From NCBI RefSeq assembly GCF_004194535.1, contig NZ_CP025782.1, forward strand, positions 1 to 57,428: a DNA stretch of 57,428 nucleotides, in the 5' to 3' direction. Shown here one piece after another: positions 23,628 to 45,884 of the stretch. The position numbers and the translations under genes were made by a program. Origin of the DNA: Iodobacter fluviatilis (lineage in GTDB: Bacteria > Pseudomonadota > Gammaproteobacteria > Burkholderiales > Chitinibacteraceae). Within the stretch, counting starts at the first letter, position 1, and each line of letters opens with the position of its first letter. The notes below the pieces were generated by a model. The model did not search any database and was not told the DNA's origin. It saw only the letters and a list, made by a program, of their open reading frames with translations.

Positions 23628-23710
23628 TCGCCACTGGCGAAACTGCGAGCGTAAGCCTCGCAAAAAACGTATGTTATACGTTTTTCGGCGTTAGCCTATC
23701 CTGCACTATT
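23628..23710 (+). other. oriT: oriT with P-type nic site
   Basis: Three inverted repeats follow one another: TCGCC-ACT-GGCGA (23628-23640), TGCGAG-N7-CTCGCA (23644-23662) and AAAAACGTAT-GTT-ATACGTTTTT (23663-23685). TATCCTG^C follows at 23697-23704, the IncP/P-type nic consensus. The predicted cut is after 23703 on the plus strand. The transferred strand would therefore run rightward from here, with relaxase and mobC on the trailing side. Confidence 0.82.
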
Positions 23711-24782: not shown

Positions 24783-26141
24783 TTAATTACCTTCAATAAC
24801 GCCTTCAACTGTCATTTCGGCAACATTGATTTCAACTTCTTCGCCTGAAATTTCAAACTTAACCCAAACACGGCCAAAATCAGCTTTACGTTTCAGCAAT
24901 AACATTGCCTCAAGACCACCAACAGAAACCAGCATTACAGGATTTTTGTACTTATCTAAACCCTCTGTTTTTGCTTCTTTTTCGTTGTTCGGATTGTGAT
25001 AAGGCAAATTTGTTTTTTTAGTCTGGTCGGCAAAACCAGTTACTTTAAAATCGCCGTTACCTTCCTGCTGTTGGGCTTCGGTTTTATCGCCGTTGCCTTC
25101 CTGCTGTTGGGCTTCGGTTTTATCGCCGTTGCCTTCCTGCTGTTGGGCTTCGGTTTTATCGCCGTTGCCTTCCTGCTGTTGGGCTTCGTTTTTATCGCCG
25201 TTGCCTTCTTGCTGTTGGGCTTCGTTTTTATCGCCGTTGCCTTCTTGCTGTTGGCCTCCGGTTTTATCGCCGTTGCCTTCTTGCTGTTGGGCTTCGGTTT
25301 TGTCGCCCTTGCCTTTCTGCTGTTGGGCTTCGTTTTTATCGCCGTTGCCTTCTTGCTGTTGGCCTCCGGTTTTATCGCCGTTGCCTTCTTGCTGTTGGCC
25401 TCCGGTTTTATCGCCGTTGCCTTCTTGCTGTTGGGCTTCGGTTTTGTCGCCCTTGCCTTTCTGCTGTTGGGCTTCGGTTTTATCGCCGTTGCCTTCTGGC
25501 TTTTTGCCTTTAATCGAATCCCGCAAAGCATCAAGAGTAGGCTTTTTAATGACCACATCAGACGCAAGCCAAGCTTCTACAATTTCGCTGTTTTCTTCAT
25601 AGAGTTTGCACAGTGTATATACATATTTTACTGTGCTTGTCCGTCCGTCTTTGTATGCCTGCATAACGCAATCGGGCGCATTGATGATGGTTTTGTAATA
25701 TGACACTTCACCAGCATCAATACCCAATTGAGCCGCCACAACCTTTGCTGTCAAGCCTTCACCAAGTTTCTTTTGAACGAATCGCGCCATATCCAAGAGA
25801 GAAAGCCCCTTGCGCTTTTCATTTTCAGAAACCTGGGCGAAGTCGTTGATTTCGTGAATCTCAATCGTTGCAGCAATCGCCGTTTCTTTCAAAATGTCTT
25901 TGTGTGCCAAGTAGCGGCAAAACCCAACACGCAAAAGAAAATTACCATCATCAAGAGGGCGCAAAACGATTGGCTGAGTAAGACCAACAGTTTTAATATC
26001 TAAGGCCAAACTTTTGATGTACTCCCAATCAATTTCTGTGCGTGGGTTTTCAGGGTCGGGAATGATTTTTTCAATTTCAACCATGAGCGGCTTACCGTCG
26101 CTCACTTTTTCGCCTATATCCAAAGCCGATAAATCCAACAT
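24783..26141 (-). CDS. korB: KorB-like ParB-family partition and repressor protein with 12-unit repeat linker
   Basis: The 452-residue product has an N-terminal ParB/Srx domain (about 12-100, 'IIPDPENPRTEIDW...GLTQPIVLR...GFCRYLAHK'), a helix-turn-helix DNA-binding region (about 105-215), and a C-terminal ~60-residue domain ('PVMLVSVGGLEAMLLLKRK...VWVKFEISGEEVEI') resembling the KorB SH3-like dimerisation domain. Between them lie 12 tandem 12-residue repeats (GNGDKTEAQQQE type), a long hydrophilic linker absent from RK2 KorB. It follows parA by 2 bp. It is the natural candidate to bind the eight CTTGGAATTTCCAAG sites. Confidence 0.82.
   Translation of the reverse strand: MLDLSALDIGEKVSDGKPLMVEIEKIIPDPENPRTEIDWEYIKSLALDIKTVGLTQPIVLRPLDDGNFLLRVGFCRYLAHKDILKETAIAATIEIHEINDFAQVSENEKRKGLSLLDMARFVQKKLGEGLTAKVVAAQLGIDAGEVSYYKTIINAPDCVMQAYKDGRTSTVKYVYTLCKLYEENSEIVEAWLASDVVIKKPTLDALRDSIKGKKPEGNGDKTEAQQQKGKGDKTEAQQQEGNGDKTGGQQQEGNGDKTGGQQQEGNGDKNEAQQQKGKGDKTEAQQQEGNGDKTGGQQQEGNGDKNEAQQQEGNGDKNEAQQQEGNGDKTEAQQQEGNGDKTEAQQQEGNGDKTEAQQQEGNGDFKVTGFADQTKKTNLPYHNPNNEKEAKTEGLDKYKNPVMLVSVGGLEAMLLLKRKADFGRVWVKFEISGEEVEINVAEMTVEGVIEGN
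25062..25493. repeat. 36-bp tandem repeat array (12 units) inside korB-like gene
   Basis: Twelve in-frame 36-bp units encode G(N/K)GD(K)(T/N)(E/G)(A/G)QQQ(E/K), followed by a partial thirteenth. Variant units (KG at the junction, GG for EA) recur in similar order, suggesting block duplication inside the array. Long open frames also appear in the other frames here only because the unit length is a multiple of three. Confidence 0.92.
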
Positions 26142-26143: not shown

Positions 26144-26929
26144 TTAAACCCCCATTTCTTTTGCAATGTGATCAAATACTGGCGCAATTTCTTTATAAGT
26201 GTCTTTTGCGCTCGTTAAATCCAACTTCCAAACTGGCTTACCTTCGGCCTGCGCTCTGGCAATACTGCTGCGCAAAGGAATAAAACAAAATGCCGTTTCA
26301 TTCCGTTTCATCAGCATTTTCCCGCGTTGTGCAATGATGCTTGCAAGGTTCTTTTTCTGAAACGGGGTAGGCTCTACTTTGGTCGGTAACAAGCCAAGAT
26401 GCTGCATAGCCTTGTTTGTTTTCAAGGCCAAAGTAACATCTTGCAAATGGCCTCCAATACCGTCGATACTCTCTTGGTTCAAATCAATAGGGCTGACAAC
26501 ATGCGAACAAACATTTAAACCGATTTGTACGCGAACATCAGGATTAGGGTTTGTATCAATAATGCAAATATCAAACTCATTACTTACCGCGTTCAAGAAA
26601 GCCCGAACATTTACGATAAATTGCGCATGTTTTTCAGCTTGGCTTTCAAGACAAAGCAATTTGTCGTTGTCTGCTGTAACAATCACAAAGCCTGTGTTGT
26701 CCGGCAAAGATTTGCCATTTGCACCATTTGCAATCAGATCACCCGCGCCAAAATTAGCTAGTTTTGCAATGCCGCCTGTTTTATATGCTTTTGACAAATT
26801 GGCCTGATGGTCAAAATCAAGAACCAAAACGCGAAGGCCGCGCTGCAAATGAAGGTGATAACCAAGCTGGCCAGCTACGGCTGATTTACCAACGCCGCCT
26901 TTTCGATTTGTAACCACAAGAGTTTTCAT
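26144..26929 (-). CDS. parA: ParA/IncC-like partition ATPase
   Basis: ParA ATPases move plasmid copies apart together with a ParB/KorB partner. The 261-residue protein begins almost directly with the deviant Walker A 'KGGVGKS' (10-16), followed by 'VLDFDHQAN' and 'DICIIDTNPNPD' (A' and B motifs). There is no N-terminal DNA-binding domain, as in short IncC or type Ib ParA. The gene lies between korA-like and korB-like genes in the RK2 order korA-incC-korB. Confidence 0.92.
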   Translation of the reverse strand: MKTLVVTNRKGGVGKSAVAGQLGYHLHLQRGLRVLVLDFDHQANLSKAYKTGGIAKLANFGAGDLIANGANGKSLPDNTGFVIVTADNDKLLCLESQAEKHAQFIVNVRAFLNAVSNEFDICIIDTNPNPDVRVQIGLNVCSHVVSPIDLNQESIDGIGGHLQDVTLALKTNKAMQHLGLLPTKVEPTPFQKKNLASIIAQRGKMLMKRNETAFCFIPLRSSIARAQAEGKPVWKLDLTSAKDTYKEIAPVFDHIAKEMGV

Positions 26930-26936: not shown

Positions 26937-27290
26937 TTACCCTAAAAAATTAATTAATTCGGCTTCTGTAATTTCGATACCGGCTTTTTTCAAAAATTGA
27001 AGAATTTGAGAATTTGCGTAACCCGACTCCCGTAGTCGTTTTACTTCACCCTGAAAACTTAAAAGGCTAGGGTGTTTCTTTGTAAATTCTTCAAGCTCTT
27101 GCTTTTTCACCAGCGCCAAAAAAAGCCTTTTAATGTTTGTAACGCGCTGTGGCTTTAGATCAAACTTGGCTGCCGCTTCTTTTGTACCAAGCCCTTCGAC
27201 CAATACGGCAAAGGCACAATCTAAGGCATTGTCAGACCAGCGGCTTGCGCTGGCCTTAGCTTTATCAAAAGCGGCCTTATCAATCGCCAT
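26937..27290 (-). CDS. korA: KorA/TrfB-like transcriptional repressor
   Basis: The 117-residue protein has a TrfB-type domain at about 10-60 ('NALDCAFAVLVEGLGTKEAAAKFDLKPQRVTNIKRLF'), containing the KorA helix-turn-helix. A C-terminal helical region follows (65-117), somewhat like the RK2 KorA dimerisation tail. It overlaps the ssb stop at TAATG and is followed 7 bp later by parA. Candidate target sites are the CGTTTAAACG operators at 20553 and 21958. Confidence 0.78.
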   Translation of the reverse strand: MAIDKAAFDKAKASASRWSDNALDCAFAVLVEGLGTKEAAAKFDLKPQRVTNIKRLFLALVKKQELEEFTKKHPSLLSFQGEVKRLRESGYANSQILQFLKKAGIEITEAELINFLG

Positions 27291-27703
27291 TAGCCTTTGG
27301 CCTGTTGATAAGCATTAGCGCCTGCTGATTGGCTTTGTTCGCCGTTGCTGCTTTGTTGGTTCAGTTGTTTGCGTTTTTCCGCGCCTGCTGCGCCAAACTC
27401 AAATTCTTGCACATTGAAGTTGTAACCAAAAACATCTTCACCGCTGCCGTTTTTGTAATTGTTATTATCAATTGTGTAATTCACGATCAATTGATCGCCT
27501 TTCATGCAATTTTTTGCAATTGCTTCACCGCGACCACGGAAAGCAGTAAATTGCAAAGAAACCGTTTTTTCACGCGCTGCGCCTGAATCATCTTTACCAG
27601 CGTAAACATTTTGAATCAGCGTGAACTTGCATACCGCACGATCACCAGAACCAGAAATAACAGGGGTAGCAGCAAGACGACCGATAAACATATTTGATTG
27701 CAT
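27290..27703 (-). CDS. ssb: Single-stranded DNA-binding protein
   Basis: The 137-residue protein has the OB-fold SSB pattern (N-terminal 'MFIGRLAATPVIS', 'VCKFTLIQNV', 'VSLQFTAFRGRGEAIAKNCMKGD'). It is short and ends in a Gln/Ser-rich tail without the acidic Asp-Asp-Asp-Ile-Pro-Phe tip that recruits host repair proteins, which is notable. It heads the korA-parA-korB operon. SSB genes are typical of the region that enters the recipient first, fitting its place right of oriT. Confidence 0.87.
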   Translation of the reverse strand: MQSNMFIGRLAATPVISGSGDRAVCKFTLIQNVYAGKDDSGAAREKTVSLQFTAFRGRGEAIAKNCMKGDQLIVNYTIDNNNYKNGSGEDVFGYNFNVQEFEFGAAGAEKRKQLNQQSSNGEQSQSAGANAYQQAKG

Positions 27704-27828: not shown

Positions 27829-28044
27829 TTAGCGCCGTTTTAGTTTGTTTTCTTTGTTTACCGCATAATCAATACGCGCCGCAATTTCAGCATCAGTTAA
27901 TTGCTCCATTGGAACGATAGCAGTAGCGCCACGACAAACCAGAATGGCTTTAACTCCATCGGTGTGCGATTTGTAATCGTGGTGGGTGTGCTTAAAGATC
28001 AGCGCCAATTTTTCATCACGCGACAACATATCAACGGTTTTCAT
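27829..28044 (-). CDS. Small hypothetical plasmid protein
   Basis: The 71-residue soluble protein has mixed charge and no recognised domain. Its ATGA overlaps the stop of the upstream gene, so the two are translated together. It lies in the leading region between ssb and the first long repeat. Confidence 0.55.
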   Translation of the reverse strand: MKTVDMLSRDEKLALIFKHTHHDYKSHTDGVKAILVCRGATAIVPMEQLTDAEIAARIDYAVNKENKLKRR

Positions 28045-28256
28045 ACATTACCCCCCTTCAAAAGACCACCTTTCACAACAGCGCCAAAAGTCATAAAACC
28101 ACTTACCGCACCGTCAAAATCAACCACGCCATTTGCAACGCGCTTAATTTTTACAGGTTTTCCAGTACGGCCATGAATTACAGTTTCACCGATTTTTAAG
28201 TCCATCATTTTGCTCGGTTCGGTAGTAGAGCGGGAAGTAGAATTTTGATTTTGCAT
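28041..28256 (-). CDS. Small hypothetical protein whose start is supplied by repeat R1
   Basis: The 71-residue frame begins MQNQNSTSRSTTEP, encoded inside repeat R1, and continues into a gene-specific part ('IGETVIHGRTGKPVKIKRV'), which looks like a small beta domain of the KOW/SH3 type. AAGGATG lies before the first ATG. An internal Met-Met at residues 17-18, exactly where the repeat ends, could be the original start. The same 14-residue leader heads two other frames (29334-29849 and 35352-35486). Confidence 0.55.
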   Translation of the reverse strand: MQNQNSTSRSTTEPSKMMDLKIGETVIHGRTGKPVKIKRVANGVVDFDGAVSGFMTFGAVVKGGLLKGGNV

Positions 28257-28940
28257 GGTTTGGCATCCTTTTTTGTAGAGGGTTTGTTATCACTTCACTT
28301 CGGACTGGCGTTTCGCGGTTAGCCCGTTTTGAAGCTGGCCGGATAAGCCAGATTGACAAGGACAAGATCAAAGCCGCATGCGCAAGGCGAAGCCGCGAAC
28401 GGGTGTAGAGCTTGAGCGAAGCGGTACTTGTTAATCAGGCGCGGCCAGCGATAAATCTAGGGCTGCGAAACACCAGCGAATGAAGTAGAACCCGACGAAA
28501 AAGGGGGTTTGCCAAGCCTTGCAAGACCAAAACAAGAGGGCATAGCCCCCAGGCTATGCGGGAAATTGAGCGGGGGAAGCCTGCGCCCCTGCGAACGGGG
28601 AAACCTTGCGGTAGGGGCGGGTAGCCCCTTTGAGCTGGCGCTTTTTAGGCCGCTTTAACAGGGTGTAGGCATGGCCTTGCCATGCTGATAGGTGGGTGGT
28701 TATTTTGGGTGTTAGGGGTGGTTTACAGTCAAAGGCTAGGGGTCGCGCCTTGCGCGTAGCGCCACCGCCAAGGGCGGCTTGGAATTTCCAAGAAATGACA
28801 ATATTCAGTCAGACCAAAAGCCTAAATAAAAACAGATCAAACGCCTTTATATTGTCAGACCATCGGTCTTTTATTAATCAGCTAGGCTGATTCTTTTTTA
28901 TAGTTTGGTCTGTTTGTTTTGTATCCGCTATTCTGTCTTT
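28203..28940 (-). repeat. Long leading-region repeat R1 (hairpin-rich cassette)
   Basis: This is nearly identical to R3 (35433-36170) at a constant offset of 7230, and its first ~430 bp to R2 (29795-30230). It holds many hairpins (GCATAGCC-CCCA-GGCTATGC; GCATGGC-CTT-GCCATGC; GGGGC-GGGTA-GCCCC) and one CTTGGAATTTCCAAG at 28778-28792. Its left end supplies an RBS, start codon and 14 codons to the 28041 gene. It accounts for most of the 800-bp gap to the next gene. No ORF inside looks genuine. Confidence 0.9.
28778..28792. promoter_or_regulatory. CTTGGAATTTCCAAG palindrome in R1
   Basis: An exact copy, 116 bp before the GTCTG array that ends the repeat. Confidence 0.66.
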
Positions 28941-28958
28941 ATATGCTCGCGTAGTCTG
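28908..28958 (+). repeat. 23-bp-phased GTCTG motif array at the end of R1
   Basis: GTCTG/TTCTG occurs at 28908, 28931 and 28954 (spacing 23 and 23), with GTTTG/GTTTT and GTATCCGCTA between. It matches the ssb-kor promoter repeats in inverted orientation and the array at 36138-36230. Confidence 0.55.
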
Positions 28959-29064
28959 GTTGTTTTTTGTCATAAATACAGCGACACAATAAAATCCACT
29001 CAAACCGCAAAAAGGATGATGATAGCGCCTTGGTCGGGCGGGGTTTCCGGCCAAGGCGCGATTT

Positions 29065-29271
29065 TTAGATTTGAGCCTGCGCACCTTCTATCTTTACAGT
29101 CGGCGGGTAATAGAACCCATATTTTGATATGTGCGCGGCTTGATCTTGAACCAGTCGCCACGCTCTACCGCACTTCGGGCATTGGAACTGCCCTAATGGT
29201 AGATTGCCCGTTAAAGTCTTTGTAAAGTCCTCAAAATCGGCGCAATGGCCGCATTTGCAGCTAATTTGCAT
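29065..29271 (-). CDS. Small zinc-ribbon protein
   Basis: The 68-residue product has Cys-Lys-Cys-Gly-His-Cys at 5-10 and Cys-Pro-Lys-Cys-Gly at 31-35, giving a likely single zinc ribbon. It has no signal peptide. TCCTTTCGGG opposite the start gives a GAAAGGA RBS about 8 bp upstream. The function is unknown; two other zinc-ribbon genes sit before topA. Confidence 0.6.
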   Translation of the reverse strand: MQISCKCGHCADFEDFTKTLTGNLPLGQFQCPKCGRAWRLVQDQAAHISKYGFYYPPTVKIEGAQAQI

Positions 29272-29290
29272 TGTTTATGCTCCTTTCGGG

Positions 29291-29324
29291 TTAAAAATAA
29301 GGAAAGGGGCTATAAGCCCCTTTC
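29291..29324 (-). terminator. Rho-independent terminator of the 29334 gene
   Basis: On the minus strand GAAAGGGGCT-TAT-AGCCCCTTTC is followed by CTTATTTTT, about 10 bp past the stop codon. Confidence 0.8.
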
Positions 29325-29333
29325 GCGCATTAA

Positions 29334-29849
29334 TTAATCATCAGAATCGGCAAGCGGTATGCCGTGTTTTTTCTTGATTTCTGCAAGCGGGGTAGGCTCA
29401 AAAAACAAATCTAGCTCTGCACCGCATGACACAATTTCTGTAATGGAAATATAGCCAAGCTCGCCGCAATCGAGCGAATTCACAAAACCAAACGCCTGCG
29501 TAACTCCATCAGTAACGTCTTTTTCTGTAATGTAAAAATCAAAGCCCCCAATGAAATAATGCAAGTAAACAATGGCTGCATCGCCTTTGCCGTCCTGCTC
29601 GTATGTTTTAGGCATATCGAGAACACGAACCGCCATTTCTAGCGACTTATCACGAAAATATTGTCTTTCTTCACGACTACGCAAACCTTCAACCATCGCG
29701 CCCAATTGGGCTTTAGGCATCCACAACTTCAAGCCCATAAGCGCAGCTTGCCAAGGCGTAAAAGTAGGGTGTTTGAATTCAGGCCGTTCAAGTACATCAT
29801 TTTGCTGCGGTTCGGTAGTAGAGCGGGAAGTAGAATTTTGATTTTGCAT
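29334..29849 (-). CDS. DUF2958-like protein with repeat-encoded leader
   Basis: The 171-residue protein begins with the shared MQNQNSTSRSTTEP leader inside repeat R2, then gene-specific sequence. Residues ~95-165 ('YFIGGFDFYITEKD...QAFGFVNSLDCGELGYISITEI...AELDLFFEPTPLAEI') resemble the DUF2958 family common on plasmids. Here R2 has one extra base compared with R1/R3, so the leader is read in frame into the body without the Met-Met start. It is monocistronic, with its own terminator. The biochemical function is unknown. Confidence 0.65.
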   Translation of the reverse strand: MQNQNSTSRSTTEPQQNDVLERPEFKHPTFTPWQAALMGLKLWMPKAQLGAMVEGLRSREERQYFRDKSLEMAVRVLDMPKTYEQDGKGDAAIVYLHYFIGGFDFYITEKDVTDGVTQAFGFVNSLDCGELGYISITEIVSCGAELDLFFEPTPLAEIKKKHGIPLADSDD

Positions 29850-30230
29850 GGTTTGGCATCCTTTTTTGTAGAGGGTTTGTTATCACTTCACTTCGGACTG
29901 GCGTTTCGCGGTTAGCCCGTTTTGAAGCTGGCCGGATAAGCCGGATTGACAAGGACAAGATCAAAGCCGCATGCGCAAGGCGAAGCCGCGAACGGGTGTA
30001 GAGCTTGAGCGAAGCGGTACTTGTTAATCAGGCGCGGCCAGCGATAAATCTAGGGCTGCGAAACACCAGCGAATGAAGTAGAACCCGACGAAAAAGGGGG
30101 TTTGCCAAGCCTTGCAAGACCAAAACAAGAGGGCATAGCCCCCAGGCTATGCGGGAAATTGAGCGGGGGAAGCCTGCGCCCCTGCGAACGGGGAAACCTT
30201 GCGGTAGGGGCGGGTAGCCCCTTTGAGCTG
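29795..30230 (-). repeat. Long leading-region repeat R2 (436 bp)
   Basis: This shares the left ~430 bp of R1 and R3, including RBS, start and leader codons and the hairpin-rich core. It ends abruptly at ...TTTGAGCTG, where a terminator for the next operon follows. It has an extra C/G in the leader (GCTGCGG instead of GCTCGG). Confidence 0.9.
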
Positions 30231-30235
30231 CGCCC

Positions 30236-30264
30236 AATAAAAAACCGCGCATAGCGCGGCTTTT
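30236..30264 (-). terminator. Rho-independent terminator of the 30285 gene
   Basis: On the minus strand CCGCGC-TAT-GCGCGG is followed by six T residues, 20 bp past the stop. Confidence 0.85.
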
Positions 30265-30284
30265 CTTTTTGATTTATTTTGATG

Positions 30285-30827
30285 TTATCCAATTGCTTTA
30301 TCAATGGCTGCGCGTACTTTGGTGATGTATTCATCAGGCAAGTAAGAGCGAAGATCATCAGCAAGAATTGCTTGAGCCACTTCAAGCAATTTAGGGGCGG
30401 CATTAATTAAATTGCTGTTTGGATTGGCGCAAACATCATTAATATAGCTAACATCAAATGTATCTTTGTACCATTGTGCCGCTCTCATATATTGAGCGGT
30501 AATATCGCCAAGTCGTTGCGTGTATGGTGATGATTGGTTATTGGGGTACAAAGCATCAACAATCGTTGTTTTAATTTGGTGACTTAATCTTGCGTTTTCG
30601 CCCATTGCGAAAACAATGTTGTTTAAGCATTTTCGTTTTTGATATGGGTTTGGGTTGTTATTCACAACAGGCATAAAAGACACTGCGGCTAAATCATTAG
30701 TGTGCTTATCTTGAACTTTTAATAAATCAGCCACAAGAGTTATTAACTCTTTTGATTCATCATCTGTGTTAGCAACTACTGTTGCAAGTTTAAAAAGTTC
30801 TTCGTTTTCTTGAATAAAATCACTCAT
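30285..30827 (-). CDS. Hypothetical helical protein
   Basis: The 180-residue soluble helical protein is of unknown family. AAAAGGAATGTAAAGC precedes the ATG. It lies between repA and R2 and has its own terminator. A B-type repeat with hairpins lies directly upstream instead of an obvious promoter. Confidence 0.55.
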   Translation of the reverse strand: MSDFIQENEELFKLATVVANTDDESKELITLVADLLKVQDKHTNDLAAVSFMPVVNNNPNPYQKRKCLNNIVFAMGENARLSHQIKTTIVDALYPNNQSSPYTQRLGDITAQYMRAAQWYKDTFDVSYINDVCANPNSNLINAAPKLLEVAQAILADDLRSYLPDEYITKVRAAIDKAIG

Positions 30828-30873
30828 GCTTTACATTCCTTTTAAAAATAAAATCACATCAAATCAAATTTAC

Positions 30874-30984
30874 AAGCGAACGGAGTTCGCAAGGGAGAGT
30901 GCCGTTAGTGGCCTCCGGCCATCAAGACAAGCTGGCTTGGCTTGACCCGAAGGGCAAGGTACGTGTTGCGTAGCAACCTCCCCC
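30874..30984. repeat. Repeat B1 (~110 bp, hairpin-rich)
   Basis: This shares GCGAACGGAGTTCGCAAG, GTGCCGTTAGTGGCCTCCGG and AAGACAAGCTGGCTTGGC with copies at 36243-36354 and 37995-38099. GCGAAC-GGA-GTTCGC and TGGCC-TCC-GGCCA are internal hairpins. Non-coding. Confidence 0.82.
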
Positions 30985-30996
30985 ATGCTGATAGAA

Positions 30997-31989
30997 TTAA
31001 GCATTATCGCTACGTTCTAAACTGTCATACCAGCGGCAATCACGCTGACCATTAGTTTTTTGTTGTTCAAGTAAATACATAGAAAAACGACGACTATCTT
31101 TACAATAAAAAACCACGTTATCTGATTTTGCATCAAATGCCACATTAAAGTTATTAATTGATTTTGATTTAATAGCTTCTCTTACAGCCTGCCTAGTGAA
31201 TTTAATATCTCGCGCAGACCCAACATTATGATGCAATTTATCAAGACCAATAACAAAAATAGTTTGTGCGCCTAAATGTTTAGAGCCAATTTCTAATAAA
31301 CGACGATCAAAGCCTGATTTCAAATCAAAGAATTGTTCATCTATCGTAAGAGCTTCAACTTTTTCACCTGTCAAATGATTATAAAGCCAATTGCAAAGCG
31401 TAATTTTAAAGCTGCGAATTGATTTAACATCATCAGGCGAAACTAAACCATCATTAGAAGAAGGCTGCTCAATGTCTGACTTTAAAGAAACATCAACTAA
31501 GTCGAACTCAGATATTAATGAGAATTCGCCAATATTAATTGTGCCATTAGAAGGCATATTTGTTTCATAAAAAGTCCGGCGCAAACGAATAATAGTTTTA
31601 AAAATATTAGAGTAAGCGGTAGCACTATCGCCGCGTTTTGCGTAAACAAGAAATTTATGCGTATCAATTAATAAAGTAGGTGAAACGGGTAGGCCGTTAT
31701 CTCGCGCATAAAGTAATTGCGAACATGCGAACATGATTAATTCTTTGTCAAAGATTGTAGCGCAACCGTATTTTTCGCTTGGCGTAACCCGAACGCGATA
31801 CTTTGTAGATGGGTTGAAATAATTACGCGGCTTGAGGTTGTATCTAACGTCTTTGCTAATCGAAAAGAAAGGCGCAATTAAGGTGCTAAGGTCGCTCTTT
31901 GGCGAAAGATCGGTAAAGCAAGCATCAAACAAATCAAGTTGTATAAGACTTTCAGGATTTTCCGCGCTTGTGCTATTATTTGTATTCAT
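30997..31989 (-). CDS. repA: RepA replication initiator (RPA family)
   Basis: The 330-residue protein matches the RPA-type initiator pattern. 'YRVRVTPSEKYGCATIFDKELIMFACSQLLYARDNG' at about 67-102 is the family hallmark, followed by winged-helix-like regions and a C-terminal 'KFTRQAVREAIKSK' helix. It should bind the 13 iterons about 5 kb to the right (GGTATGTGTAGATCGG). No iterons lie at its own promoter, so autoregulation, if any, uses another signal. A plus-strand hairpin with T-run overlaps its leader. Confidence 0.82.
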   Translation of the reverse strand: MNTNNSTSAENPESLIQLDLFDACFTDLSPKSDLSTLIAPFFSISKDVRYNLKPRNYFNPSTKYRVRVTPSEKYGCATIFDKELIMFACSQLLYARDNGLPVSPTLLIDTHKFLVYAKRGDSATAYSNIFKTIIRLRRTFYETNMPSNGTINIGEFSLISEFDLVDVSLKSDIEQPSSNDGLVSPDDVKSIRSFKITLCNWLYNHLTGEKVEALTIDEQFFDLKSGFDRRLLEIGSKHLGAQTIFVIGLDKLHHNVGSARDIKFTRQAVREAIKSKSINNFNVAFDAKSDNVVFYCKDSRRFSMYLLEQQKTNGQRDCRWYDSLERSDNA

Positions 31990-32058
31990 TATTATTTACC
32001 CTAATGATAGTGACGACCCCAAAGCCTGCGCACTCCCGATGCGTGGGCTTTCTTTTTT
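31986..32058 (+). ncRNA. Candidate ~70-nt antisense RNA over the repA leader
   Basis: On the plus strand TTCAGG (31951) and TATTAT (31974) with a 17-bp spacer precede a 12-bp stem (AAAGCCTGCGCA paired with TGCGTGGGCTTT, 32021-32051) followed by TTTTTT. A transcript would begin at the repA start codon and pair with the repA ribosome-binding region. The -35 is weak; this is a prediction. Confidence 0.3.
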
Positions 32059-32467
32059 ATTGCTCTGCTTCGGCCTTAACGCTTAAAGATTTTTTTGCTT
32101 TTTCGCGCTTTTTCAAGGCTTTGCGTAGCAAATCCACATTGACAAGCATTGCTTCAAGATATTTGTCTACCTGTGCCTGCGTATCTGCGTCTGTAGAACT
32201 CACTAATTCAGTAAGTTGCTTGAACTTTTCCGGCGCATTAGAAATAGCAAAAAACTTCATTGAGCGATTGTGAGATGCGGTTTTTTCATTGCCCCATTTT
32301 TCGGCTTCAATTTTTTCATCATCCGTCAGAAGATCAATAATCGAGGACGGAAACGAATTCAAATATGAATCAAAAGAGCCAATCATTTTTTGGCGGCAAC
32401 GCTTCAAGTCTGAATCATAAACTGAGCGAATCACCTGATATTTACGCCCCTGCAATCGAACAATCAT
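32057..32467 (-). CDS. Hypothetical protein upstream of repA
   Basis: The 136-residue basic helical protein begins MIVRLQGRKYQVIRS. This ATG is preferred because GGGG lies about 6 bp upstream and the longer frame (to 32521) would run through the promoter at 32493-32521. The family is unknown. It precedes repA on the same strand with 68 bp between, so both may be co-transcribed. Confidence 0.55.
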   Translation of the reverse strand: MIVRLQGRKYQVIRSVYDSDLKRCRQKMIGSFDSYLNSFPSSIIDLLTDDEKIEAEKWGNEKTASHNRSMKFFAISNAPEKFKQLTELVSSTDADTQAQVDKYLEAMLVNVDLLRKALKKREKAKKSLSVKAEAEQ

Positions 32468-32492
32468 AATTAACCCCATGAGATTTATAGTA

Positions 32493-32521
32493 ATTATATT
32501 GCATAGACTGATTAAAAACAA
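32493..32521 (-). promoter_or_regulatory. Promoter of the 32467 gene (and possibly repA)
   Basis: Minus-strand TTGTTT and TATAAT are spaced by 17 bp, ending about 26 bp before the start. GTCTGCTTGTTTTT and GTCTA motifs overlap it, similar to the arrays in R1/R3 and the ssb promoter. A CTTGGAATTTCCAAG palindrome lies 36 bp upstream. Confidence 0.6.
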
Positions 32522-32556
32522 GCAGACTACACAAATAATTATCAGGAAGTAAAAAG

Positions 32557-32571
32557 CTTGGAATTTCCAAG
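32557..32571. promoter_or_regulatory. CTTGGAATTTCCAAG palindrome upstream of the 32467-repA promoter
   Basis: An exact copy, extended by flanking bases to a 19-bp palindrome (AGCTTGGAA-T-TTCCAAGCT). CAGAC/GTCTG motifs lie on both sides. Confidence 0.68.
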
Positions 32572-32663
32572 CTCTGACAACTATTAATCAGACTATACGC
32601 CAAAAACATAGGAATAGCATGATAAGAAAATATCCGCTAGTCGGATTGTATAAAATCAGACAT

Positions 32664-32852
32664 GCACAGCCCCCAGGCTGTGCGGCTTTCTGCGCGGGAA
32701 GCCTTGCGGCAGGGGCGGCAAGCCCCTTTGAGCTGGCGCTTTTTAGGCCGCTTTAACAGGGTGTAGGCATGGCCTTGCCATGCTGATAGGTGGGTGGTGA
32801 TTTTGGGTGTTAGGGGTGGTTTACAGTCAAAGGCTAGGGGTCGCGCCTTGCG
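32664..32852. repeat. Partial repeat R4
   Basis: This matches the right part of R1/R3 (CCCCCAGGCT ... GCGCCTTGCGC) with an internal deletion and scattered changes. It abuts the stop codon of the next gene. With the palindrome region it fills the 330-bp gap. Confidence 0.85.
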
Positions 32853-33365
32853 CTAAACCAAAGGAATTTTTGCAAAACTGAGTTGGTCATATTTCTTTAT
32901 AAAATACGGCCATGTTTCAATAATGCTTTGTTTCTGCCTGCTATTCAGCTTCAAGAATAAAGACAGCCAATTAATAGCCGCTAAAAATGCGCCATAAACG
33001 GTTTTAAATTGTCCGTTGCTTAAATTTATTTTATGCGTCTGCCTTTTCATGCCTTCGGCCTGCCCGACGACTACACGAATATATACAGTATTTCTATTTT
33101 TAAGATGCTGCACACCAATATAAGAAGGTGAACCATCAGCGCAAATTAAGGTGAATGTCGCAAGAACATCACCTTTTTTATTTTTCGCTTTTTTCGGCTT
33201 TAAGTACCTTGTTGCAAGGCTGGATTCTAGTTTTTCAATTAAGTAATTATTTGCGATAGCTTCGTTTTTTTCACTTGCATACTTGCACAATTCCTTGCCT
33301 TCTCCGGTCACGCGAAAACGAGAAACTTTGTAAGTTCCTTTAATTCGTACTGACTTGTAAAACAT
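32853..33365 (-). CDS. Hypothetical protein
   Basis: The 170-residue basic, mixed alpha/beta protein is of unknown family. The ATG at 33365 lies one base after the stop of the upstream gene and is preferred; an in-frame extension to 33437 would overlap that gene by 70 bp. The gene ends exactly at repeat R4. Confidence 0.5.
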   Translation of the reverse strand: MFYKSVRIKGTYKVSRFRVTGEGKELCKYASEKNEAIANNYLIEKLESSLATRYLKPKKAKNKKGDVLATFTLICADGSPSYIGVQHLKNRNTVYIRVVVGQAEGMKRQTHKINLSNGQFKTVYGAFLAAINWLSLFLKLNSRQKQSIIETWPYFIKKYDQLSFAKIPLV

Positions 33366-33366
33366 A

Positions 33367-33783
33367 TTAATTGTAACGGCCTGCATCGCCGCCAAGTATG
33401 ATTTTTTCAGGTGAAACCGCAAACAACAAAGAATCATAAAACCACATCAGGCCAAACAAAACTACATCAAAACCAAGCATGAAATAAATTACTTTGTTCG
33501 GTGCATCAACAAAGTAAGCCACTGGAATGATGATAAATGATAAACCGATTGCGATATGTGAAACAAAAGTAAGCGGTACGCGCAAAACCATCAAAGAAAA
33601 GAAAATAACATAACGTACAATCTTCAACAGATCACGACCAAAGCCAGCGGCTTTATCAGAAAAACCATTGCTTTTAATTTTGCTTTCTAGTGGTTTATTG
33701 TTAGCCACTGGATTGACGCGCTTTGTAGTATTTGATTTATTCATGTTTTTTCTCGGAAACATTACAACATTACTTGATACCAT
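33367..33783 (-). CDS. Hypothetical inner-membrane protein
   Basis: The 138-residue product has a basic N-terminal 50 residues followed by two or three hydrophobic segments (about 57-75, 78-95, 98-118) and a short tail. It is likely in one operon with the 32853-33365 gene. GAAAGGGG precedes the start. The function is unknown; a leading-region membrane protein could affect surface or entry exclusion. Confidence 0.55.
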   Translation of the reverse strand: MVSSNVVMFPRKNMNKSNTTKRVNPVANNKPLESKIKSNGFSDKAAGFGRDLLKIVRYVIFFSLMVLRVPLTFVSHIAIGLSFIIIPVAYFVDAPNKVIYFMLGFDVVLFGLMWFYDSLLFAVSPEKIILGGDAGRYN

Positions 33784-33864
33784 GATAGACCCCTTTCAAT
33801 TGAAATTATTTACAACTTAATTATAGTAAATAAAAAACAAATAACCGTATTAATTTAATGCTTC

Positions 33865-33878
33865 GTGATATAAATCAC
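33865..33878. promoter_or_regulatory. CRP-like site upstream of the 33783 operon
   Basis: On the minus strand TGTGA-TTTATA-TCACG matches nine of ten conserved CRP half-site bases. It lies about 85 bp before the start codon, with a TATAAT between. A single match of this kind can arise by chance in AT-rich DNA. Confidence 0.35.
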
Positions 33879-33905
33879 ATAACGCCCAATAAACGGCGCT
33901 ATCAA

Positions 33906-35333
33906 TTAAAACAATTCAGCCTGATAAGCCGCATTAGAATTTGATTTAACATGAACATCTTTAAATACATTTTTCAAATTCAACAGGCATTTACCTATCA
34001 ATTCGCCAACAGCTACAAAAGGGGGGTAGCAAATGCTTTGGCCTAATAGCTGATGACCAAAAGTAAGGCTAACATTATCAGAAATTAGCGTTTCTGGAAT
34101 CATTTTGCAACGTGCATGCTCTTTAACTGTGACTTGGCGCATCAAATTTTTATTAACGGGGTGGCGCACTTTGATCTCAGTTGATCTCACTTTGGCATAC
34201 CCTGCGCCGATTGTCGGCACTTTCACGCTTTCAGCATCGCAAACCTGCATCTGAAAACCCTTACCGTCTGCAATGTCTCGCTCTTGCTTTGCAAGCAAAC
34301 CTTTCATTTCAGACCATCTTGAATCATCAAGTGGCACATCATCAAGAATATCACCAAGTCTTTTTTGTTCTTTTTCTGGTCGGCTTAAATCAGATAAATT
34401 AAAATTTAATCCAGAAGATACCGCTATTGCACATAACCGCGAACGGTTTTCAAGTACATTCCAATCATCGGCATTTAAAATTTCTTCGTGTAATGTATAG
34501 CCAAAATCTCTTAATTGATTACGGATAATCCACATACTCGCACTAGATTGATAAGGTACAACATTTTCAATTAATAAAATTGATGGGTTTAATTTTCCAA
34601 TAATAGCCAGAAAAGAAGCGACAAGCCCTCCCACGCTTTCATGTTGTTCAGCGCATGCAGTGCCTTTTTTTGCGCGGCCTGCTACGCTTGCGCCTTGGCA
34701 TGGAATACCTGCCGCTAAAAATAGCGTTTCAGGTAATGCGTTCAAGGTATCAAAATCCCATGCTAATTCTTGCATTGGCATTGCCAGCGATACGGTATTT
34801 TTATCCCATAAAGAATTATGCTCTTGTGCATGCTCTAACATTTCAGCAGAAATATCATTAGCCCATACCAATTTTGTTTTAATTCCTACTGATTCAAAAC
34901 CAGAATGTAAAGCATGGTCTAAAATTCCACCGCCATGACTAATTGAACCGCAAGGGATTGATTGGCCTGATTTAATCAATTCCATCAAGCGCGATTCTCT
35001 TTCAATCCGTTTTTTTTCTGATGGTACGGGTACAATATAAATTGTATCGTTATCAAAAATAACTTTTACCGAATTCATGCCAGAAAAACACTCTAGCAAC
35101 TGACTTGCATTAATATCAATAATTGGCACAACCTTATCGTTCCGTTTTCTCATAGAAACAATGCGCGTACCGTTTTCACATACAGTCAAACGAATTGATT
35201 TTTTTTCATTATCCAGCAAAACATCAAATTGCTTTCCAGCTTCAAAACCTGCGGCTTTTAATGCTCCACCTTCAAGCCAAACGCGAGGGGCATTTCTATT
35301 TTCACCAATTTTTGCAATGTGAACTGATTTCAT
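33906..35333 (-). CDS. DNA cytosine-5 methyltransferase with SymE/AbrB-like N-terminal domain
   Basis: The 475-residue enzyme has a C5-MTase body from about 130 with motif I-like 'GSISHGGGILDHAL', the catalytic 'AAGIPCQGAS' (motif IV Pro-Cys) and 'LLIENVVPY' (motif VI). A C-terminal 'LTFGHQLLGQSI..PPFVAVGELI' region corresponds to motifs IX-X. Residues 1-60 ('RVWLEGGALKAAGFEAGKQFDVLLD') resemble the SymE/AbrB-like fold. ATG at Met-Lys-Ser-Val is chosen for its AGGGG. There is no partner endonuclease, so it is an orphan, plausibly protecting the plasmid from host restriction on entry. Confidence 0.85.
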   Translation of the reverse strand: MKSVHIAKIGENRNAPRVWLEGGALKAAGFEAGKQFDVLLDNEKKSIRLTVCENGTRIVSMRKRNDKVVPIIDINASQLLECFSGMNSVKVIFDNDTIYIVPVPSEKKRIERESRLMELIKSGQSIPCGSISHGGGILDHALHSGFESVGIKTKLVWANDISAEMLEHAQEHNSLWDKNTVSLAMPMQELAWDFDTLNALPETLFLAAGIPCQGASVAGRAKKGTACAEQHESVGGLVASFLAIIGKLNPSILLIENVVPYQSSASMWIIRNQLRDFGYTLHEEILNADDWNVLENRSRLCAIAVSSGLNFNLSDLSRPEKEQKRLGDILDDVPLDDSRWSEMKGLLAKQERDIADGKGFQMQVCDAESVKVPTIGAGYAKVRSTEIKVRHPVNKNLMRQVTVKEHARCKMIPETLISDNVSLTFGHQLLGQSICYPPFVAVGELIGKCLLNLKNVFKDVHVKSNSNAAYQAELF

Positions 35334-35351
35334 TTTCAACACCCCTATCAA

Positions 35352-35486
35352 TTAGAAATAACGAACAACAACAGCAAGAGCCAAAACACAAAAAGACATT
35401 ACGCCTTTATCTGAATTTAAGAATTCAAAGATCATCATTTTGCTCGGTTCGGTAGTAGAGCGGGAAGTAGAATTTTGATTTTGCAT
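35352..35486 (-). CDS. Small ORF (44 aa) with repeat-encoded leader, before the methyltransferase
   Basis: The shared MQNQNSTSRSTTEP leader is encoded in R3, followed by Ser-Lys-Met-Met and a C-terminal hydrophobic stretch (VMSFCVLALAVVV), suggesting a single-span micro-membrane protein. AAGGATG precedes the ATG. Its stop lies 18 bp before the methyltransferase start, so it may serve as a leader peptide coupling that gene to the R3 cassette. Confidence 0.5.
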   Translation of the reverse strand: MQNQNSTSRSTTEPSKMMIFEFLNSDKGVMSFCVLALAVVVRYF

Positions 35487-36170
35487 GGTTTGGCATCCTT
35501 TTTTGTAGAGGGTTTGTTATCACTTCACTTCGGACTGGCGTTTCGCGGTTAGCCCGTTTTGAAGCTGGCCGGATAAGCCGGATTGACAAGGACAAGATCA
35601 AAGCCGCATGCGCAAGGCGAAGCCGCGAACGGGTGTAGAGCTTGAGCGAAGCGGTACTTGTTAATCAGGCGCGGCCAGCGATAAATCTAGGGCTGCGAAA
35701 CACCAGCGAATGAAGTAGAACCCGACGAAAAAGGGGGTTTGCCAAGCCTTGCAAGACCAAAACAAGAGGGCATAGCCCCCAGGCTATGCGGGAAATTGAG
35801 CGGGGGAAGCCTGCGCCCCTGCGAACGGGGAAACCTTGCGGTAGGGGCGGGTAGCCCCTTTGAGCTGGCGCTTTTTAGGCCGCTTTAACAGGGTGTAGGC
35901 GTGGCCTTGCCATGCTGATAGGTGGGTGGTTATTTTGGGTGTTAGGGGTGGTTTACAGTCAAAGGCTAGGGGTCGCGCCTTGCGCGTAGCGCCACCGCCA
36001 AGGGCGGCTTGGAATTTCCAAGAAATGACAATATTCAGTCAGACCAAAAGCCTAAATAAAAACAGATCAAACGCCTTCATATTGTCAGACCATCGGTCTT
36101 TTATTAATCAGCTAGGCCGATTCTTTTTTATCGTTTGGTCTGCTTGTTTTATATCCGCTAGTCTGTTTTT
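35433..36170 (-). repeat. Long leading-region repeat R3
   Basis: This is essentially the same sequence as R1 at a constant offset, with a few substitutions (for example GTAGGCGTGG for GTAGGCATGG). It carries the CTTGGAATTTCCAAG at 36008-36022, the hairpin core, and the RBS/start/leader codons feeding the 44-aa ORF and the methyltransferase. Confidence 0.92.
36008..36022. promoter_or_regulatory. CTTGGAATTTCCAAG palindrome in R3
   Basis: An exact copy in the same position as in R1. Confidence 0.66.
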
Positions 36171-36242: not shown

Positions 36243-36354
36243 AAGCGAACGGAGTTCGCAAGAGAGAGTGCCGTTAGTGGCCTCCGGCCAGCAAGACAAG
36301 CTGGCTTGGCTTGACCCATCGGGCAAGGTGCGTGTTGCCGCTAGGCAACCTCTC
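36243..36354. repeat. Repeat B2 (~110 bp)
   Basis: This is a second copy of the B element, starting AAGCGAACGGAGTTCGCAAG and ending in a small hairpin (GTTGCC-GCTA-GGCAAC). Non-coding. Confidence 0.82.
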
Positions 36355-36423: not shown

Positions 36424-36501
36424 TTATCGTCTGTCTGTTCGATCTGGTATCGGCTCTCTTTGCCTTCTTTCTCGCTCTTGATGTTCGTCTTGCGATTTCA
36501 T
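36424..36501 (-). CDS. Micro-ORF (25 aa), highly charged
   Basis: A 25-codon frame (MKSQDEHQERERRQRE...) has a strong AGGGGG ribosome-binding site 5-10 bp upstream and lies between the 36511 gene and a clear terminator. It is rich in Arg/Glu with no hydrophobic residues. The good RBS and the tight fit before the terminator support translation; the function is unknown. Confidence 0.45.
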   Translation of the reverse strand: MKSQDEHQERERRQREPIPDRTDRR

Positions 36502-36510
36502 TATTTCCCC

Positions 36511-36774
36511 CTAATTAAATTGATTTTCTTTATTTGCTGCAATCAATTCATTGAATATTAAATCTGCATTGTTTCTAAATCTATTTTTATTCATCTTTCT
36601 GGCTTGGTCTATCAATAGTAATAATTCTGATTTGTCAGAATTAAGTTTAATTTCAGGTGAAACACCAAAATTAAATTTGGTGCTTTCATCTGGCGCGTAA
36701 GCGCCCCAAGCCGTTTGCAAAGTAAGATACTTTGCTGATTTAGTTTTTGCAATAAACGTAAAAGCGCACATCAT
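36511..36774 (-). CDS. Hypothetical protein, possibly 5'-truncated by repeat R5
   Basis: The product is about 87 residues from the Met-Met at 36774. 'FTFIAKTKSAKYLTLQTAWGAYAPDE' and a Lys/Asn-rich helical tail look like genuine protein, but no RBS precedes the start. The open frame continues upstream into repeat R5, which is clearly not coding. The gene may have lost its natural 5' end when R5 arrived. Family unknown. Confidence 0.4.
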   Translation of the reverse strand: MMCAFTFIAKTKSAKYLTLQTAWGAYAPDESTKFNFGVSPEIKLNSDKSELLLLIDQARKMNKNRFRNNADLIFNELIAANKENQFN

Positions 36775-36796
36775 GTTTAAATGCTTTGATAATGGC

Positions 36797-36920
36797 AAGA
36801 AGTAGAACCCGACGAAAAAGGGGTTTGCCAAGCCTTGCAAGACCAAAACAAGAGGGCATAGCCCCCAGGCTATGCGGGAAATTGAGCGGGGGAAGCTTTG
36901 CGGTAGGGGCGGGTAGCCCC
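36797..36920. repeat. Partial repeat R5
   Basis: This matches the middle of R1-R3 (GAAGTAGAACCCGACGAAAAAG to GGCGGGTAGCCCC) with an internal deletion of about 24 bp and one missing G. Confidence 0.85.
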
Positions 36921-37167
36921 ACTTAAGCTAAGGTTAATCAAGATGTAGTAAAATGTCTTAAACTCTTAAAACCTGAAACAATAGCTTTAAACTATTAGAA
37001 AATGTAGATAGATATACTAATGCGCAAGGCGCAAGCACTCAGTAAGAAAGCAAACCCTTCGCCTTATCCTAAAAACATTGGTTTTAAATGGTCAATTACC
37101 TATTAAGTATCAGCATGGCAAGGCCATGCCTTCGCGCTGGTGAATGTGCGGTGTTAATAGGATAAGA

Positions 37168-37963
37168 AGATAACAATAGTTGGCAGTTATACGCACGCGG
37201 TTACGGTTTTGTAACCTTTTGAATTAATTACTTATAAATAGCTTCTTGGTATGTGTAGATCGGGTATTTTAGTATGCGTAGATCGGATTTTAGAGTATGT
37301 GTAGATCGGTCTTTGGTATGTGTAGATCGGTAGCTGGTATGTGTAGATCGGTAGATTTTTAAGATTACTTGGTATGTGTAAATCGGTAGTTCAGCTTACT
37401 TATTCAAGGGTTTTCCCTATTGATTTACTTTGCCTGATGATCTTTTTGTAAGGCGTTGGTATTATTTCCTGTGGTCTTTCCTCTTTGGCCTTACTTGATC
37501 TGTTTTTTCTCTGTTTTGCTTAGTTTTTCGGGGTTTTTTCAGGTTAAAAGATAACAATAGTTTTAAAGTTAAACGCATGCGCGGTTACGGTTTTATAGCT
37601 ATATGATTTTATTACATTTTTATGCTGTCTCGGTATGTGTAGATCGGGTTTCATGGTATGTGTAAATCGGGTCTTTTGGTATGTGTAGATCGGGTTTTGG
37701 TATGTGCAGATCGGGTTTCATGTACTTGTTGTGTGGTTTTTTCTGTGAAGTTACCCACAATTTCTAACTGATTGAGTCAGAAAAACAACTGAAATATGCT
37801 TAGTTTTGTAATAATTCGCGCCCTTGCCTCTTCTAAGTGCCTGCTTATCGGCCTCTGGTATGTGTAGATCGGGTCTTGGTATGTGTAGATCGGGGTTTCG
37901 GTATGTGTAGATCGGGTTTCGATCTTTTGCGCAGTAAGAATTAACGCCTAAATCTGTGGATAA
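37168..37963. other. oriV: oriV: 13 iterons in three clusters plus DnaA boxes
   Basis: The iteron is GGTATGTGTAGATCGG (minor variants). Cluster 1 starts at 37248, 37271, 37294, 37315, 37336 and 37371; cluster 2 at 37632, 37655, 37678 and 37699; cluster 3 at 37857, 37878 and 37900; spacing is usually 21-23 bp. A ~45-bp direct repeat (AAGATAACAATAGTT ... GCGGTTACGGTTTT) precedes clusters 1 and 2. A perfect DnaA box (TGTGGATAA) lies at 37955-37963 and a one-mismatch box at 37751-37759. T-rich stretches between clusters are the likely unwinding region. There is no gene from 36.8 to 38.2 kb. Confidence 0.9.
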
Positions 37964-37994
37964 GTTGCTTTTGAGCATTAAGCGGCAGGATGAC

Positions 37995-38099
37995 GCAAGG
38001 GCGAGTGCCGTTAGTGGCCTCCGGCCAGCAAGACAAGCTGGCTTGGCTTGGCTTGGCTTGACCCATAGGGCAAGGTAGGTTTCGCGTAGCGAACGCCCC
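37995..38099. repeat. Repeat B3 with GCTTG slippage tract
   Basis: A third B copy, beside oriV. It contains extra tandem GCTTG units (four in a row) compared with B1 and B2, and shares GTGCCGTTAGTGGCCTCCGG. Confidence 0.8.
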
Positions 38100-43022: not shown

Positions 43023-43328
43023 ATGATTCGACAAGACCCGATCTTTAAAGGGGCGACTCGCCCCGCTATGGTTTTCGGTGTGCCGCTAGTGCCGTTCTTT
43101 ATTGTAGTTTGTGGGCTGGTTCTTTTCTCTGTTTGGTTTTCGTTTTTCTTTATGATTCTTGCGCCAATTGCAGTTTTTGCAATGCGTCTAATTACAGAAA
43201 AAGACGATCAATCATTTAGAATTATCGGTGTTAGTTTATTGCTTGGTGTGCGGCAAAAGCATAAAACTTATTGGGATGGTATGCACTCTTACTCTGCTAT
43301 CAGCAATAAGCGAATCGAGAAGCGTTAA
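43023..43328 (+). CDS. virB3: VirB3 inner-membrane T4SS protein
   Basis: VirB3 works with VirB4 and the pilin at the inner membrane. The 101-residue product begins with a short polar N-terminus ('DPIFKGATRPAM', the family pattern), has two closely spaced hydrophobic helices (about 16-36 and 36-56), and a basic cytoplasmic tail. This copy is intact; its left-end duplicate is damaged. A 63-bp gap to virB4 carries GC-rich sequence and AACGAGG. Confidence 0.9.
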   Translation: MIRQDPIFKGATRPAMVFGVPLVPFFIVVCGLVLFSVWFSFFFMILAPIAVFAMRLITEKDDQSFRIIGVSLLLGVRQKHKTYWDGMHSYSAISNKRIEKR

Positions 43329-43391
43329 TCAAAGCTAGGGCGGTGCGTTTAGTGCCGCCCTTGATTTTTTAATAACGAGGTAAAAAACAAG

Positions 43392-45854: not shown

Positions 45855-45869
45855 TTAGCGGTGTTCAAT

Positions 45870-45884
45870 CTTGGAATTTCCAAG
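45870..45884. promoter_or_regulatory. CTTGGAATTTCCAAG palindrome (right copy of 2803)
   Basis: Duplicate of the virB4-virB5 site; count it once for the real plasmid. Confidence 0.7.

Follow-up and report, generated by a model that had tools for sequence, protein, structure and literature searches.

Hairpin repeats in the leading region of a PromA-like plasmid from Iodobacter fluviatilis as candidate single-strand promoters of an apex-hairpin family

Introduction

Frpo1 and Frpo2 of the F plasmid and the Frpo-like single-strand initiation (ssi) repeats of ColIb-P9 are long hairpins that are repeated before genes of the leading region including ssb, and Frpo has also been reported to prime second-strand synthesis. 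For ColIb, a review (PMC8744291) describes ardA as being expressed before the transferred strand (T-strand) becomes double-stranded, via 'a Frpo-like promoter'. The CUP elements of the IncN plasmids pKM101 and R46, about 445 bp long, recur in front of several leading genes of one strand, and the long intergenic repeats of PromA plasmids lie in gaps before ssb, DUF3560/ArdC and methyltransferase genes. A structured single-strand site of another kind is the phiX174-type primosome assembly site, which we take to be located in the F-G intergenic region. Here we describe three repeats, R1, R2 and R3, from a stretch of 57,428 nucleotides of Iodobacter fluviatilis (NCBI RefSeq assembly GCF_004194535.1, contig NZ_CP025782.1, positions 1 to 57,428 of the forward strand; this whole stretch is called the window), which share the long hairpin with Frpo, the position before leading genes with CUP and the apex of the hairpin with the PromA repeats. 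Judged by sequence and predicted fold, R1–R3 are members of a family of structured apex hairpins in the leading regions of conjugative plasmids, for which no clear homology to Frpo or CUP was seen. As far as the evidence goes they would work like Frpo without being Frpo, and we consider it probable, with some reserve, that they are single-strand promoters, with or without a priming function.

Results and Discussion

The elements and the site at which transfer should begin are as follows:

R1, 28191-28900, direct repeat
R2, 29784-30230, direct repeat
R3, 35421-36130, direct repeat
R1 hairpin, 28257..28520, plus strand; apex at 28370-28405, base adjoining the ATG at 28256; z -6.1, covariance model score 54.3 bits
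R2 hairpin, 29850..30113, plus strand; base adjoining the ATG at 29849, candidate boxes at 30021-30026 and 30043-30049
R3 hairpin, 35487..35750, plus strand; base adjoining the ATG at 35486, candidate boxes at 35658-35663 and 35680-35686
nic, TATCCTG^C, 23697..23704, plus strand; 5' end of the T-strand at 23704, oriT upstream of mobC

As an initial annotation of the window had proposed, R1, R2 and R3 are three copies of one cassette upstream of different genes, being direct repeats in the same orientation that are 94-100% identical by block. Their 264-nt hairpins differ pairwise by 1, 1 and 0 bases, and the identity continues 42-54 bases into the three open reading frames (ORFs), which have the common start MQNQNSTSRSTTEP. 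With R1 as query 7 matches were found in the own genome, all on this contig. The nic site proposed in the same annotation was likewise recovered, as the sequence AGCCTATCCTGCA at this position is also present upstream of mobC and in matching orientation in the PromA plasmids pTer331, pSB102, pK1219-2 and pP33-1; TTAGCCTATCCTGCA is common to three of these four (as a group L012, L020, L021 and L022). In RP4-type systems the nic site sets which strand is transferred, and from this together with the match to the PromA plasmids the plus strand is assigned as the T-strand, predicted to enter from 23704 rightwards. Since all ORFs longer than 106 aa between 24.05 and 36.8 kb lie on the minus strand in a greedy ORF map, the T-strand would be the template of the leading genes; the annotation had claimed this for every gene, but three unsupported plus-strand ORFs of 87-106 aa remain in this region. 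R1–R3 are thus located, in the manner of Frpo, 4.6-11.8 kb into the leading region and upstream of genes predicted to be templated by the T-strand.

On the plus strand each R folds into a single long imperfect hairpin of about 262-264 nt with -61 to -62 kcal/mol, the base of which coincides with the start codon, so that an Frpo-shaped stem-loop abutting the start codons is indeed predicted for the transferred strand. The core had been described as full of inverted repeats; strong folding was confirmed (z -6.1, with 0 of 200 shuffles as low), but it is mainly due to this one hairpin. In a ranking of 487 windows that cover the circle R2 and R3 come first and second (z -9.2 and -8.0) and R1 seventh (-6.2), and the exact R1, R2 and R3 stretches give -5.9, -7.3 and -5.7, these values resting on 20-25 shuffles per window. 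A sliding fold of 150 nt did not single out the 264-nt hairpin. The complement of R reaches -50 to -51 kcal/mol and is therefore 10-12 kcal/mol worse, with 1 G-T pair versus 8 on the T-strand, and the strand asymmetry exceeds that of shuffles of the same composition by 1.8 to 3.2 standard deviations (sd). Strong folding was also seen in stretches that are neither R nor contain an apex, at 32489-32752 and 36449-36888 (z -6.5 to -7.6; -6.8 at 32489 and -7.6 at 36449).

R and the PromA elements share the apex GAAGCCGC-(variable)-[AC]CGGGTG and the stem pieces TTTCGC..GCCCG / TAGGGC..CGAAA. This apex recurs in PromA, IncW, Burkholderiales, F-like and IncI plasmids and is often found before antirestriction genes; since the motif was picked by eye from PromA matches, part of its invariance in A1 was built in. 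Letter shuffles of six plasmids predict 0 to 0.05 occurrences of the strict motif per plasmid, the strict pattern gave 3 further matches elsewhere in the own genome versus 2 for the reversed control, and no match was obtained in viral contigs. As a blastn search with R1 against PLSDB at E 1e-5 gave no match and a DNA search with R1 in 100 relatives returned the own plasmid and one 45-bp match only, the family link could be found only through the fold and the apex motif. Using R3 at E<=1 one weak PLSDB match (E 0.07, 33.9 bits) was obtained, which corresponds to the apex, lies on the inferred T-strand before a minus-strand gene and is a sign of the family that is independent of the training set. 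Three queries led to 178, 123 and 305 PLSDB records, mostly matching in the apex only. The database search that had been suggested for the R core yielded no relatives of the core at E 1e-5; related plasmids do have elements of the apex family on the leading side before genes templated by the T-strand.

In the six PromA plasmids examined there are gene-free gaps before ssb and DUF3560/ArdC, and in two of them a methyltransferase or hypothetical gene is preceded by another such gap. Folding like that of R (z -7.0 to -8.9), with a strand asymmetry of -2.8 to -4.7 sd, was obtained for pK1219-2 and pP33-1 immediately before the DUF3560, methyltransferase and hypothetical genes. The asymmetry is also present in pTer331 and pIPO2 at weaker z (-2.8 at the element and -1.6), pYK0422-04 and pMRAD02 show neither strong z nor asymmetry, and at the gene itself no asymmetry was seen in any PromA ssb gap folded. 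Compared to the PromA repeats, the stems of the window are AT-richer and divergent. The covariance model built on the apex retains 5 base pairs and is in effect a profile of the sequence; with it R1–R3 scored 54.3-54.9 bits, R1 and R2 being part of the training set. Among 399 genomes of the order 19, the own included, carry an element at 34 places in total, which is a lower bound due to strict filters and at most 10 candidates scored per genome. Some of these places are on large contigs (in G219 a single one) and not all need be plasmids. In the open-access literature searched no description of the apex family was found. The ssi sequences of Nomura from 1991 may include members of it. The DR1/DR2 regions of RA3, arrays of r1/r2/r3 repeats with r3 as putative iteron, were considered and taken as unrelated to R.

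The stem itself appears to be maintained. In 13 PromA-type elements with 35 stem pairs, 16 paired cells have changed on both sides versus 4.9 ± 1.6 after shuffling (0/500), and after addition of R1 and R2 these numbers are 28 versus 9.6 ± 2.4, with 89.9% of the cells pairing against 83.0 ± 0.8 in shuffles and 38-47% in slid controls; the alignment tested also supplied the structure, and tests of this kind are inflated by relatedness. RNAalifold on 29 elements gave only 5 pairs, the distant stems not being alignable, and the subset of 15 elements was used instead. The position of the hairpin relative to the gene also recurs: in 17 of 34 hand-picked gene/element pairs the start codon is 0-9 nt from the stem base and 95-116 nt from the apex, all three R being among them (base 0, apex 113 nt). 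Of the remaining pairs 8 lack an apex in the 420 nt next to the annotated start and 9 are further away or looser, and the test left out the T-type copies (those on the T-strand) of L019, L022 (second), L029, L031, L032 (two), L034 (32123), L073 and L075. For the 27 loci that the model found outside the window, some of which are near-copies of each other, the 420 nt on the expected side contain a plausible start codon in 23, those on the mirror side in 11, and in 12 of the 27 the distance is 92-145 nt.

A scan for sigma-70 consensus sites between 27700 and 37200 gave 19 sites versus 20.3 expected and none inside the three hairpins, in line with the earlier remark that conventional -10/-35 boxes are poor, and no consensus promoter was found in the scans on the duplex coding strand within the hairpins. 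A candidate is present in the folded strand:

R1 candidate promoter, 28428..28456, plus strand; TTGTTA-16-GATAAAT on the distal arm, non-template in the fold, with the RNA start predicted opposite about 28323-28324

With a TTG after the apex as anchor, TA...T follows on the distal arm at 15-17 nt in 10 of 30 class-1 clusters, compared to 0.48 ± 0.73 in shuffles (maximum 3 in 500), to 0/22 on the duplex coding strand and to 0/3 clusters of copies on the non-transferred strand (non-T copies); clusters without a TTG (4/34 distal, 12/34 coding) were dropped.

Taken together these data suggest the following model. The plus strand would enter the recipient first from 23704, and each R on it would fold into the hairpin ending at a start codon. 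Host RNA polymerase could then use the stem as a duplex promoter with the distal arm (TTGTTA-16-GATAAAT) as non-template and the proximal arm as template, starting the RNA about 65-68 nt before the ATG, so that leading genes might be transcribed before the complementary strand exists. The genes read early would be the small ORFs with ssb-incC-korB, the gene of the 171-aa ORF and the methyltransferase, until second-strand synthesis removes fold and promoter. The conserved apex is probably a binding site for a host factor and could, in addition, act as a priming site for the second strand.

Several observations weigh against this model. With 8/12 the boxes of R1–R3 do not outscore shuffles (p 0.32-0.35), and their -10, AT-rich and partly unpaired, departs from a strict TA...T; anchor and spacing of the cluster test were set after inspection, and 13-15 nt also gives 10. 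The search for a promoter in the fold has provided a candidate pair of boxes in R1–R3, which alone does not exceed chance, and a spacing that recurs in 10 of 30 clusters. Of the 35 consensus pairs R1 and R2 form 22, six of them through changes on both sides, and 13 stay open, compared to 31-35 formed in the PromA rows, and the stem of the window appears to be partly in another register than the PromA consensus. Gene-adjacent z values are weak in pIPO2 (-1.6), pYK0422-04 (-0.9) and pMRAD02 (+0.8), and T-type copies at L013 7661, L022 36927, L029 26005, L031 1663 and L034 32123 have no annotated gene start near on the expected side. For IncI plasmids PMC10104558 assigns the leading region with ArdA to ssi1-3, which are taken to be Frpo-like repeats. 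Finally, the non-T strand carries 15 of the 44 apex copies counted in 18 plasmids (the counts are not independent, and L013 and L017-L022 were examined only in part), and in 7 of 7 short non-T copies folded it is the motif strand that folds better. Better folding of one strand therefore marks the strand of the motif and not that of transfer.

Thirteen of the 15 non-T copies are short PromA copies, one is present in a 2953-bp MobV plasmid and one is weak. Of the short PromA copies three lie in the gap of oriT, two precede a coupling-protein gene on the other strand and others directly follow the ends of genes, and pSB102 has one in the ssb gap together with iterons. In the type IV secretion system (T4SS) region, L012 (20119-20255) and L033 (19949-20076) have a short apex copy upstream of the minus-strand coupling-protein gene, the one of L012 being within a 300-bp repeat that is also found in the gap before ssb. 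As such copies occur and their motif strand also folds better, the apex seems to have a role that needs no gene, most simply priming. Relatives in the other orientation had been named as evidence against single-strand promoters; they are present in part and would point to priming in addition.

Among the alternatives priming alone ranks highest. R could be ssi sites only, with the apex recruiting a primosome or primase for repeated second-strand starts in the leading region and the nearness to genes being secondary. The short copies on the other strand, which are mostly not before genes and include the three in the oriT gap and the one in the pSB102 ssb gap, as well as apex copies in two small MobV plasmids and a weak apex likeness to the phiX174 F-G intergenic region agree with this, and because of the 22/35 stem pairs and because the strand measure also holds for non-T copies we gave slightly less weight to the promoter and slightly more to this explanation. 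However, priming leaves the stem base at the start codon and the spacing on one arm unexplained, nhmmer found no match in the phiX stretch, and as sole function we regard it as rather unlikely. Ordinary double-stranded regulated promoters, duplicated for co-regulation as in CUP and with the fold being incidental or an operator array, are clearly less probable still: the CUP repeats of R46 (~445 bp) share the anatomy before several leading genes, and the palindrome TTGGAATTTCCAA, a possible operator, is present in R1 and R3 and beside nic, but the hairpins contain no consensus promoter on the duplex coding strand, and stem covariation and a one-strand folding preference, which CUP does not have, would not be expected. 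A function of the hairpin in the mRNA leader, as attenuator or in translation control, is very improbable, for the mRNA corresponds to the opposite, less well folding strand and the G-T pairs are kept on the T-strand, even if the hairpin overlaps the likely 5' untranslated region and Shine-Dalgarno sequence. It is equally hard to believe that the repeats are functionless debris of recombination or transposition, for which the partial copies at 32696-32853 and 36799-36929 could be quoted, since the apex is conserved across unrelated plasmid groups, the stems covary and the geometry recurs.

The hairpin on the T-strand, the relatives on the leading side and the spacing on the folded arm speak for the proposal that R1–R3 are single-strand promoters; the boxes of R1–R3 themselves are weak. 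Beyond the window, the data might be read to mean that conjugative plasmids have, besides Frpo and unrelated to it, another widespread family of single-strand promoters, of which R1–R3 are an AT-rich divergent branch. Its members would have a conserved apex, a covarying stem ending at the start codon and a -10 only in folded DNA, and would precede early genes, among them those for antirestriction and methyltransferase proteins, in PromA, IncW, Burkholderiales and other plasmids; in F and ColIb-P9 they would be neighbours of Frpo. This wider reading is tentative, with nearly as much for it as against it. If true, such a family, whose motif can be searched for, would mean that anti-defence genes are expressed early in broad-host-range environmental plasmids as well, and it would give a function to the PromA long intergenic repeats. 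Apex and distal-arm -10 would then also be a target for studying how RNA polymerase or the primosome reads folded DNA in non-enteric hosts.

Members of the apex family also occur in model plasmids. In ColIb-P9 the model matches the T-strand with 37.6, 25.3 and 23.7 bits upstream of a DUF1281 gene, ardA and an antirestriction gene, the latter two elements being inside 98% identical repeats, and a weaker match on the other strand (20.1 bits, E 0.045) is located at the start of psiB. In the F plasmid a match of 36.7 bits is separated by about 1 kb from the next annotated gene, one of 24.4 bits (E 0.005) lies before an antirestriction gene, and an Enterobacter F-like leading region has three apex copies before three genes, one of them ardA. 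F and ColIb-P9 thus hold both families, at separate places. The Frpo2 stretch of F folds with z -5.0 on the plus strand of the record (-119.1 for the T-strand versus -111.6 for the complement). That R has no clear homology to Frpo, as had been assumed, agrees with the local score of 42 between Frpo2 and R1, which equals the best of 100 letter shuffles, with the absence of an Frpo match in the blastn search of R3 at E<=1 over PLSDB, which includes F, and with the absence of apex model matches to Frpo1/2 or the ColIb Frpo-like repeats. Unlike R, CUP forms no single long hairpin in the two folds inspected, and four CUP elements have no consistent T-strand preference; no motif match was found in CUP, and homology was rejected with a score of 41 (shuffle mean 32.6, maximum 47) and no model match below E 1 in R46 (11.5 bits, E 2.9). 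The phiX174 site shows a GTGAGG..CGAAGCG likeness to the apex. In comparisons of the F-G region with individual apices, 1 of 200 shuffles scored as high for the window, 7 for L022, 32 for the class-2 apex of L022 and 14 for L023, which places this weak likeness between suggestive and chance level.

The genes behind the three hairpins and the partial copies of R are listed below:

71-aa ORF, first behind R1, 28041..28256, minus strand; followed by the ORF 27829-28044
ssb, behind R1, 27290..27703, minus strand; PF00436, E 7e-10, operon predicted from gene order
171-aa ORF behind R2, 29334..29849, minus strand; no family in profile searches
44-aa ORF behind R3, 35352..35486, minus strand; its stop meets the start of the methyltransferase ORF
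C5 cytosine DNA methyltransferase behind R3, 33906..35351, minus strand; PF00145, E 3.5e-24
incC/parA, 26144..26929, minus strand; best 48-49% identical to PromA IncC
korB/parB, 24783..26141, minus strand; PF06613 and PF08535
partial R copy, 3' module only, 32696..32853, plus strand; sequence match
partial R copy without apex, 36799..36929, plus strand; sequence match

Behind R1 two 71-aa ORFs are followed by ssb, a small ORF, incC and korB, and no family was assigned to the 71-aa ORF 28041..28256 in profile searches. The 171-aa ORF had been called DUF2958-like, which we could not reproduce, as there was no Pfam match at E<=0.01 and the NCBIfam match (E 0.13) is far below its cut-off.

The first 14362 bases of the window are repeated at 43069-57428 with 99.93% identity and 10 gap positions, and the window is therefore a circular plasmid of about 43.07 kb whose assembly ran on beyond the full circle; some ORFs are not the same in the two copies. 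Its gene order RepA (PF10134), ssb, incC, korB, oriT, mobC and MobP1 relaxase is that of PromA plasmids, e.g. pTer331, including the x between ssb and incC, and topoisomerase I (topA), VirB4, VirB8, VirB9, VirB10, VirB11 and coupling-protein families complete a PromA-type set with a VirB-type T4SS. The best identities to PromA proteins are 48-49% for IncC and 35-37% for MobC, and an IncC search of genome contigs gave 51 stretches, none of which was confirmed. By gene order and nic the plasmid is accordingly classed as PromA-like and not as the IncP-like plasmid that had been suggested. We use 'PromA-like' because the 17-bp PromA iteron, taken from PMC9499019, was not found in the window (best 3 mismatches; exact copies in L022, L024 and L027) and nine other iterons, GGTATGTGYAGATCGG, are located at 37248-37915, a probable oriV about 5 kb from repA (30997-31989).

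Between its domains KorB contains about twelve 36-bp repeats (12 aa, EGNGDKTEAQQQ-like; 24942-25589). The relaxase at 21987-23014 is split into two overlapping ORFs that both match MobP1, which comes either from a sequencing indel or from a frameshift of the plasmid itself. Repeats of a second family, about 96 bp long and without apex motif, occur at 30874-30969, 36243-36338 and 37980-38075, with one copy directly upstream of the ORF 30285-30827. The palindrome TTGGAATTTCCAA is present at eight sites of the circle (2804, 11102, 15536, 23730, 28779, 32558, 36009 and 40447), among them the ones beside nic and in R1 and R3, and is a candidate operator of a plasmid-wide repressor.

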